NCBI GenBank assembly: GCA_902546795.1
Contig: CACCLK010000001.1
Location: forward strand, 1 to 64,000
DNA from: an uncultured Pelagibacteraceae bacterium
Lineage (GTDB): Bacteria; Pseudomonadota; Alphaproteobacteria; Pelagibacterales; Pelagibacteraceae
Direction of reading: 5' to 3'
DNA length: 64,000 nucleotides
Both the position numbers and the translations under genes were made by a program. The notes under the pieces were generated by a model that had not been told where the DNA came from, searched no databases, and was given only the letters and a program-made list of their open reading frames with translations. Positions 48,789 to 51,455 of this stretch are shown here, piece by piece. Position 1 is the stretch's first letter, and the number at the start of each line of letters is the position of its first letter.

Positions 48789-50465
48789 ATGGAAATAAAT
48801 AAATTAAACAGCCTTGTAGAACTATTTTTTAAAAAATATAACGAGGTAAATTCTAGCAAACCTTTTTTAAGATGGTTGAAACTTGAGAAACAAAATTACA
48901 ACTGGCAGGAAACAGCAGAAAGAATTTTTAAACTTACTCACGAAATAAAGTCATTGATTAATGAAGGAGACAGATGTTTGATACTATCAGAAAACAGACC
49001 TTATTGGTTGATGGTAGATATAGCTGTTATGAATGCAGGTGGTGTTTCAGTTCCTATTTTTACAACTTATTCGTCAAATGATTACGAATATATTTTAAAT
49101 GACTGTAGACCGTCAGTAATAATTGTTTCAAATAATGATCAATTTATTAAAATAAAGAATTATATAAATCCTGAAGTAAAAAAAATTATTTCTTTCGAAA
49201 AATTAGAAAAAGCAAGTTTATTAATAAATGATATCATTGAGAGAGGAAATTCAGAAAAAATAATAAATCATAAATTGAAAAGAAATATGCCTGCATGCAT
49301 AATTTATACCTCGGGAACCTCGGGGAATCCAAAAGGTGTGATATTAAGCCATGGAGGAATTCTCTCTAATTGCGAAGGTGCTTTTGATTTATTGAAACCA
49401 CTTATTAAAAAAAAGGATCCGATATTTTTAACGTGGCTGCCACTGTCTCACTCGTATGAGCATACCGTTCAATTTGTACAAATTCTCTTAGGTGCAAAAA
49501 TTTTTTATGCAGAAAGCCTTGAAAAACTTTTGTCCAATATGTCAATCGCAAAACCTACAATTATGACAGCCGTTCCAAGGTTCTATCAAAATTTATATCA
49601 TAAAATTTCAATGAATTTTGAAAAGCAAAAAGGTTTAAAGAAAAAATTAATTGAAAATACTATTTCTCTTGGCACAAAAATTTTAAAAAAAAAACAATTA
49701 AATTTTAAAGAAAAATTTGTAAACTTTTTATGTGAGAATCTGGTTAGAAAAAAAATTAAAAAGCAATTTGGAGGACAGCTCCAAGCTTTTGTTTCTGGTG
49801 GCGGAGCGCTCGATAGAAAGATAGGTGAATTTTTAAATTCTATTGGATTACCTACTTTACAGGGGTACGGTCTTACAGAGGCCTCTCCTGTGGTAAGTTG
49901 TAATTTACCTCATAATATTCAAGTGGAAAGCGTGGGACCTCCTTTTAAGACTAATAATGTAAAGATCGCAGAAGATGGAGAAATTTTAATAAAAGGTGAG
50001 AATGTAATGTTAGGATATTGGGAAAAGAAAAAGGAAACTTCCGAGGTAATAATTGATGGTTGGTTACATACAGGCGATATAGGGCAAATCAATCATGATG
50101 GAAATTTAATAATCACAGATAGAAAAAAAGAGCTTATCGTTAATTTAGGTGGCGATAATATCTCACCAACAAAAATAGAAAATTTACTGTGTTTAAGTGA
50201 AAATATTAAACAAAGTTTTGTTTATGGTGACAAAAAAAATTATTTAGTTGCTTTAATTGTTTCAGAAAACTTAAAAGATGAAGAAAAAATAAAGAAATAC
50301 ATTGAAAATCTTAACAAAAACTTATCTTTAATAGAAAAAATAAAGAAATTTAAAATAATTTCAAAAGAATTTACAATTGAAAATAGAATGCTCACTCCCA
50401 CATTAAAATTAAAAAGAAAAGAAATTTTAAAAAATTATAAACAAGATCTAGAAAGTCTTTATTAA
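48789..50465 (+). CDS. AMP-dependent long-chain acyl-CoA synthetase
   Basis: IIYTSGTSGNPKGVILSHGG, LQGYGLTEASPVVS, GWLHTGDIGQINHDGNLIITDRKKELIV. Confidence 0.92.
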   Translation: MEINKLNSLVELFFKKYNEVNSSKPFLRWLKLEKQNYNWQETAERIFKLTHEIKSLINEGDRCLILSENRPYWLMVDIAVMNAGGVSVPIFTTYSSNDYEYILNDCRPSVIIVSNNDQFIKIKNYINPEVKKIISFEKLEKASLLINDIIERGNSEKIINHKLKRNMPACIIYTSGTSGNPKGVILSHGGILSNCEGAFDLLKPLIKKKDPIFLTWLPLSHSYEHTVQFVQILLGAKIFYAESLEKLLSNMSIAKPTIMTAVPRFYQNLYHKISMNFEKQKGLKKKLIENTISLGTKILKKKQLNFKEKFVNFLCENLVRKKIKKQFGGQLQAFVSGGGALDRKIGEFLNSIGLPTLQGYGLTEASPVVSCNLPHNIQVESVGPPFKTNNVKIAEDGEILIKGENVMLGYWEKKKETSEVIIDGWLHTGDIGQINHDGNLIITDRKKELIVNLGGDNISPTKIENLLCLSENIKQSFVYGDKKNYLVALIVSENLKDEEKIKKYIENLNKNLSLIEKIKKFKIISKEFTIENRMLTPTLKLKRKEILKNYKQDLESLY

Positions 50466-50592: not shown

Positions 50593-50621
50593 TTGACATG
50601 TAACAAAAAAAACTTAAAGAT
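50593..50621 (+). promoter_or_regulatory. putative promoter of the basic micropeptide gene
   Basis: TTGACA (50593-50598), 17-nt spacer, weak AAAGAT -10 candidate; hairpin begins about 10 nt downstream. Confidence 0.4.
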
Positions 50622-50671
50622 TAAAAATATAAACGAATCACAATGATTTGTTTAATTAACAGGGAGATAAG

Positions 50672-50746
50672 ATGGCTAAAAGAAGAAAAAAAGCTAAAAA
50701 GAAAAAGAAAGCTAAAAAAGGTAAAAAAAGAAGAAGAAGAAGATAG
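50672..50746 (+). CDS. 24-aa Lys/Arg-rich micropeptide (absent from ORF track)
   Basis: ATG...TAG encodes MAKRRKKAKKKKKAKKGKKRRRRR; SD AGGGAGA 7 nt upstream; hairpin 50631-50653; terminator downstream. Confidence 0.75.
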   Translation: MAKRRKKAKKKKKAKKGKKRRRRR

Positions 50747-50762
50747 TAACTTTCTTTTTAAA

Positions 50763-50800
50763 AAACGCCCTACTTTATTTGAAGTGAGGGCGTTTTTTTT
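50763..50800. terminator. bidirectional intrinsic terminator between micropeptide gene and carD
   Basis: ACGCCCTACTT...AAGTGAGGGCGT stem flanked by A run and T run, usable on both strands. Confidence 0.85.
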
Positions 50801-51455
50801 ATTCTAATTTCGCTAATTCTAAACGACCTAAAGCTTTATCCATTTTTTTTTGTACATCTTCAGGACCTAAAGATAAAACTGCCTCAAACTCTGATTTAAG
50901 TCTTTCGTAAGCTTTTTCAAAAAGTTGCCTCTCAGAGTAAGACTGGTCTGCGATAATGTCGGTATTTTTGTTAAGATCTTTTACTACCTCTGCAAGCTCA
51001 TATATCTTTCCAGAGTTAATTTTTTGATCGTATTCTTGAGCTCTTCTGCTCCACATAGTTCTTTTAATTTTTGGTTTAGTTTTAAGGATCGCTATACATT
51101 TGTTAACTTGATTAATGGATGCAATTGGTCTTAAATTTGATTGTTGGTTTATTGGAACAGTCAAAGTCAATTTTTCTTTTTCAATAAATATTTTATAAAA
51201 TTGAATATCAATTTGGCCTATTTTAGCTTTTTCTACGGCTACTATTTTTCCAACTCCATGTTTAGGATAGACGACAAAATCTTTTACATTATAAACTTTT
51301 TTTTCTGAGGCTTGTTTTTTGACTTTTGTAATTATTGGTTTTTCGTCAGAATTAGCTGATGCAGGCTTTTTATCATTTGAGGAAGTCTTTTTTTTTAATA
51401 TAACTTTTTTTAATTTTATTTTAGCCTTCTTTTTGACTTTCTTTTTTTTTGGCAT
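50799..51455 (-). CDS. carD: CarD/CdnL-TRCF-family transcriptional regulator with Lys-rich N-terminal extension
   Basis: KDFVVYPKHGVGKIVAVEKAKIGQIDIQFYKIFIEKEKLTLTVPINQ. Confidence 0.92.
   Translation of the reverse strand: MPKKKKVKKKAKIKLKKVILKKKTSSNDKKPASANSDEKPIITKVKKQASEKKVYNVKDFVVYPKHGVGKIVAVEKAKIGQIDIQFYKIFIEKEKLTLTVPINQQSNLRPIASINQVNKCIAILKTKPKIKRTMWSRRAQEYDQKINSGKIYELAEVVKDLNKNTDIIADQSYSERQLFEKAYERLKSEFEAVLSLGPEDVQKKMDKALGRLELAKLE

Follow-up and report, generated by a model that had tools for sequence, protein, structure and literature searches.

A conserved, unannotated gene for a very short polybasic peptide convergent to carD in the Pelagibacterales

The window analysed here is a 64-kb stretch of DNA from a member of the Pelagibacteraceae (SAR11), whose genome is represented by an incomplete 703-kb assembly of 27 contigs. 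Its acyl-CoA synthetase ORF ends at 50465 and is followed by approximately 205 nt without a called gene, a gap that had been described as unusually long (about 200 nt) in an earlier reading made from the sequence alone (the sequence-only reading). Beyond this gap lies a small ORF, which starts with ATG at 50672, stops with TAG at 50744-50746 and codes for the 24-aa peptide MAKRRKKAKKKKKAKKGKKRRRRR, with 19 basic residues as that reading had reported. It is followed by carD on the opposite strand (stop codon 50799-50801), and a ferredoxin is also among the neighbours of the locus. A base-by-base check found TTGACA, the hairpin, the Shine-Dalgarno (SD) sequence, the start and stop codons and the terminator all at the positions first given for them. 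The features of the locus are as follows:

50593 to 50598, forward strand: -35 element TTGACA, read from the sequence, the spacing from TTGAC to CGAATCA being kept across the order
50615 to 50621, forward strand: weak candidate -10 element TAAAGAT with a spacer of 16-17 nt, assigned by position only
50631 to 50653, forward strand: 5′ leader hairpin AAACGAATCA-CAA-TGATTTGTTT (whole stretch AAACGAATCACAATGATTTGTTT), folding at -8.9 kcal/mol
50634 to 50640, forward strand: heptamer CGAATCA, where the transcript is expected to begin, invariant in distinct leaders of two families
50661 to 50667, forward strand: SD sequence AGGGAGA, every copy from the same genus having GGGAG(A) 4-6 nt before its ATG
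50672 to 50746, forward strand: ORF for MAKRRKKAKKKKKAKKGKKRRRRR, conserved at all loci compared and with charge-preserving codon changes
about 50760 to 50799, forward strand: terminator hairpin AAACGCCC...GGGCGTTT with a U-run, read from the sequence, possibly used in both directions
50799 to 51455, reverse strand: carD, an ORF convergent to the small gene, coding for a Lys-rich N-terminal tail, with homologues carrying such tails across the order

Among the ORFs of 18-60 aa in the whole 64 kb, both strands included, this alone reaches 70% Lys+Arg, and no comparable basic ORF arose in first-order Markov resamplings of the window, either in 40 resamplings with an SD required or in 20 without that requirement. 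The proposal that the gene has its own promoter needs one refinement: TTGACA is present and its order-wide spacing is kept, but the -10 element is weak and a sigma-70 consensus scan of the window did not have the 50593 promoter among its listed promoters, so that support for this promoter comes from conserved spacing and not from consensus. The terminator likewise proposed for the gene is indeed a strong hairpin with a U-run, with the refinement that it is common to the micropeptide gene and the convergent carD. In relatives, the GC stem and the T-run after it are kept with altered loop and stem sequence.

Loci in other genomes were found using carD as an anchor, and only those with enough flank were counted. 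A basic ORF convergent to carD is present at 69 of 69 Pelagibacterales loci from two families. Within the genus of the window, all 30 loci hold the ORF with GGGAGA, an ATG, the N-terminus MAKR and an Arg-rich C-terminus, and a basic ORF with an SD, again convergent to carD, is found at 18 of 18 loci from other genera of the family and at 21 of 21 from the sister family, where two further contigs that end approximately 100 nt from carD were left uncounted. The sequence-only reading had named conservation of start codon, SD and frame in relatives as a check on the gene; start, SD, frame, stop and terminator were found in every relative with enough flank. Five genomes (G006, G079, G206, G223 and G228) are without both carD and the leader. 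Gene loss was considered for these and rejected in favour of assembly gaps, because the synthetase match reaches the contig start (G206, G006), is truncated (G228) or has no close counterpart (G079, G223). It may be mentioned that in several genomes of the same genus (G006, G206, G228) the assembly breaks in or near the acyl-CoA synthetase, just before the micropeptide locus.

The genus of the window represents the shortest length class, 20-25 aa, of an order-wide family. In its sister genera (here g5 to g9) the peptides range from 22 to 58 aa, being 22 aa in g9, 23-35 aa in g6, 31 aa in g7, 36-38 aa in g5 and 34-58 aa in g8, and the sister family has proteins of 40-99 aa, such as MEELKVIFAKARKKAKKKAAPKKKRKAAKRKPAKKK..., that resemble histone-H1 tails. 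The longest member, which begins MEDLKIIFAAAKKKAKKKAAPKKKKAAPKKKKKAAKKK..., is also H1-tail-like. Lys/Ala(/Pro)-rich low complexity with variable repeat number is clear in the members of 34-99 aa (g8 and the sister family), those of 40-99 aa being built of Lys/Ala/Pro repeats, and only Lys, Arg and Ala (with Thr in some cases) are left in the genus of the window. Short and long forms appear to be homologous on the basis of position, leader, SD and composition; low complexity makes proof at the sequence level impossible.

A pattern combining the SD with the N-terminus was searched for in 85,462 species genomes, and almost all of the 80 matches listed belong to the Pelagibacteraceae. The three others among the matches listed, from Phycisphaerales, Erysipelotrichaceae and Lachnospiraceae, all lack the leader. 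In 387 Alphaproteobacteria genomes the same pattern matched only in Pelagibacteraceae, and at 28 alphaproteobacterial carD loci from outside the order no similar ORF adjoins carD. As the pattern misses diverged forms, those of the sister family included, the restriction to the order is valid for the form seen in the window and for the carD site only. A protein search with an 85-aa form against 191 alphaproteobacterial genomes gave no match, missing its own family too; it is therefore uninformative, and DNA patterns were used instead. Outside the Proteobacteria, a Phycisphaerales contig (L141, VERO01000002.1) has a 21-aa ORF with an SD, MAKKKKKAAKKAAKKTAKKSR. A phage origin was considered and rejected, as five viral contigs matched the N-terminal pattern and none has the SAR11 leader. 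Two viral contigs (L278, L280) carry SD-preceded ORFs for Lys/Asn peptides of 25 and 23 aa (MAKKKKKNKKNKGKKKKNKKNKKKR and MAKKKNKKNKGKKKKNKKNKKKR), again without that leader, and these represent a separate case of tiny polybasic protein.

Searches of six family members with Pfam and NCBIfam profiles gave no meaningful match, and the gene is consequently not placed in any named family. A PDB search with the 24-aa peptide found no match up to E = 10, a result weakened by compositional bias, and a further PDB search returned nothing meaningful. Using Rfam 15, no match above gathering scores was obtained in the window region, and only tRNAs were matched at six diverse loci. The micropeptide gene is not mentioned in the available portions of a study of structured RNAs in Pelagibacter (PMC2704228) and of a Red Sea mdRNA-Seq paper (PMC5069720), and a wider literature search found nothing on it, nor any structure of a SAR11 ribosome.

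All 143 distinct leaders with sufficient flank, drawn from two families, carry the heptamer CGAATCA without a single change. TTGAC lies 38-42 nt upstream of it in 142 of these, which places the heptamer where transcription is expected to begin; in the remaining leader (L048) another TTGAC-like match is found closer to the heptamer. Simple hairpin pairing of the heptamer, upstream of the SD, is predicted in 119 of the 143 leaders. CGAATCA is also unchanged in the sister family, g5, g7 and g8, where the 3′ arm is different and its pairing partner is often another part of the 5′ arm. Covariation gives slight support, amounting to two G-C pairs that replace A-U or G-U at the pair adjoining the heptamer, since the stem is nearly invariant. 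A CCTC or CTCC element able to pair with the SD is seen in the sister family, g5 and g8 (L031-L050, L072, L074, L079, L081-L085) and is absent from the genus of the window. The promoter-plus-heptamer pattern occurs once per genome wherever it is found, as does the leader hairpin pattern in the genome of the window. An operator of a wider regulon was rejected because CGAATCA...GATTY(R) is essentially confined to the carD-side locus in 12 genomes, with a few weak sites near control level. The idea that the ORF serves a downstream gene, as an attenuator or leader peptide, was rejected as well, since the ORF is succeeded by a strong terminator and the gene beyond it is convergent. The leader may regulate translation of the micropeptide itself.

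Selection on the peptide was assessed from 98 distinct coding sequences of less than 60 aa, which give 105 pairs differing by 1-3 nt. These near-identical pairs, which are not independent of one another, contain 212 codon differences, of which 134 are synonymous (63%), 64 exchange Lys and Arg (30%) and 14 exchange Ala and Pro (7%), with no stops and no loss of charge. Random mutation would give 16% synonymous and 7% Lys/Arg changes, with 48% from basic to other residues and 15% stops. Length changes between copies stay in frame, and Arg accounts on average for a fraction of 0.65 of the last six residues as against 0.11 elsewhere. As no class of codon change occurs beyond synonymous, Lys/Arg and Ala/Pro, the comparison of coding sequences indicates that the peptide, and not the RNA alone, is under selection, the kept features being its charge and its Arg-rich end. 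The original suggestion of a small gene in its own right, complete with promoter, leader, SD, ORF and terminator, is thus strongly supported by conservation and charge-keeping codon changes, and it is virtually certain that this is a real, conserved gene that has gone unannotated.

With regard to function, we infer that the peptide binds nucleic acid, with the nucleoid as the first candidate and RNA or the ribosome as the second. The reading preferred here, to which we give about an even chance, is that of a free, disordered polycation with a DNA or nucleoid function, made from its own promoter and with a leader hairpin that aids the message. The peptide would resemble a cut-out histone-H1 C-terminal tail and would act by charge, as a small nucleoid protein alongside HU/IHF that binds and neutralises nucleic acid, mainly chromosomal DNA; its contact surfaces would be the Arg-rich end and the Lys/Ala core. 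Its length would change by gain or loss of Lys/Ala units and, the number of these being variable, binding is expected to follow from charge rather than from a fold. The gene is predicted to be expressed alone from its own promoter. A probable role of the 5′ hairpin is to make the mRNA more stable, and through it the peptide or some other factor may govern translation. Of the functions that the sequence-only reading offered, a histone/protamine-like protein is favoured and a ribosomal protein less so, as the family reaches 99 aa and its long members are H1-tail-like. Counting against a nucleoid role, these genomes already hold two to three HU/IHF-family proteins, and such a polycation could equally bind RNA, ribosomes or polyphosphate. 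A more specific version, namely an order-wide polycation coating the nucleoid or RNA, reduced in the lineage of the window to a minimal 'protamine' of approximately 23 residues, nearly all of them Lys, Arg or Ala, and autoregulated via the CGAATCA hairpin, is considered unlikely.

It is worth mentioning that the N-terminal tail of the neighbouring CarD is Lys-rich and H1-like in all Pelagibacterales seen (the window and loci L001-L050 and L065-L085), so that carD and the micropeptide gene are alike in tail-like composition. In the sister family these CarD tails contain long KKKVAKKKVA or KKKAAPKKVV runs, and those of some other Alphaproteobacteria (L092, L113) are Ala/Lys-rich too.

Known bacterial proteins offer parallels for such a polycation. 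Chlamydial Hc2 varies by the number of its Lys-rich repeats, and it and the Hc2-like proteins of Bordetella, Burkholderia and Ralstonia are, like the SAR11 family, Lys/Ala-rich and built of repeats in variable number, though at 165-237 aa Hc2 is longer than the 20-99 aa seen here (PMC2848022). The C-terminal KPAA tails of AlgP and PhaF in Pseudomonas are disordered and Lys/Ala/Pro-rich, like the long SAR11 members, and KPAA peptides of AlgP bind DNA (PMC9239181). However, the AlgP tail is attached to an alpha-helical domain, whereas the SAR11 protein is the tail alone, its short forms almost without Pro.

Foremost among the alternatives, albeit unlikely, is a SAR11-specific small ribosomal or ribosome-associated protein, buried in rRNA like bL37 (Mycobacterium, 24 aa) or eL41 (25 aa), whose positions in the ribosome are solved. 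The short forms of 20-25 aa match these in length and basic composition, and a solitary gene behind a structured leader would be in keeping with a ribosomal protein. However, a family whose members vary in repeat number, and with it in length between 20 and 99 aa, is unlike a fixed, rRNA-buried chain, and the peptide has no aromatic, His or Asp/Asn residues and no non-basic signature residues. Local alignments to these two are no better than those of shuffled peptides (z -1.8 to 0.8); membership is not supported, the likeness being compositional only.

An RNA-binding or RNA-chaperone micropeptide that targets its own leader hairpin and represses its own translation is improbable, ranking next after the ribosomal alternative. 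The Arg-rich C-terminus, the invariant CGAATCA hairpin a short way upstream of the SD at essentially this one locus and the SD-pairing element of the sister family, g5 and g8 would all suit it, and in Bacillus, according to a title cited in PMC2864753, RNA regulation involves small basic proteins. The SD-pairing element is nevertheless absent from the genus of the window, the near-invariant stem shows slight covariation, and CGAATCA...TGATTCG might also function at the DNA level, as a site where transcription begins. The likeness of the SAR11 peptide to the three small, basic proteins of the Bacillus iron-sparing response is of kind only.

It is very improbable that the peptide binds polyphosphate, or acts as a general counter-ion, in place of binding DNA. 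AlgP, similar in composition with its H1-like tail, associates with polyphosphate granules and spaces them (PMC9239181), but the SAR11 gene has no genomic link to phosphate genes, its neighbours being those listed above. Lastly, a dual-function or non-coding small RNA with an incidental ORF would suit the conserved promoter spacing, 5′ hairpin and terminator, but is extremely improbable, given that every copy keeps the ORF, start and SD, that codon changes are stop-free and overwhelmingly synonymous or charge-keeping, that length changes are in frame and that no Rfam family was matched.

Few cell lineages in the ocean are as numerous as SAR11, whose genomes contain little dispensable DNA. A gene kept at a single site across the order and absent from the family libraries searched here would represent a blind spot in a model of streamlined life, and trypsin, as used in standard proteomics, would reduce its product to fragments of one or two residues. 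H1-tail-like basic proteins are known as a kind; what is new is the extreme shortness in a globally important lineage. The leader is a candidate cis-regulatory element that is open to testing, and the gradation in length between 99-aa H1-like tails and a 20-aa polycation would constitute a natural experiment on the minimal sequence for a nucleic-acid-coating protein.
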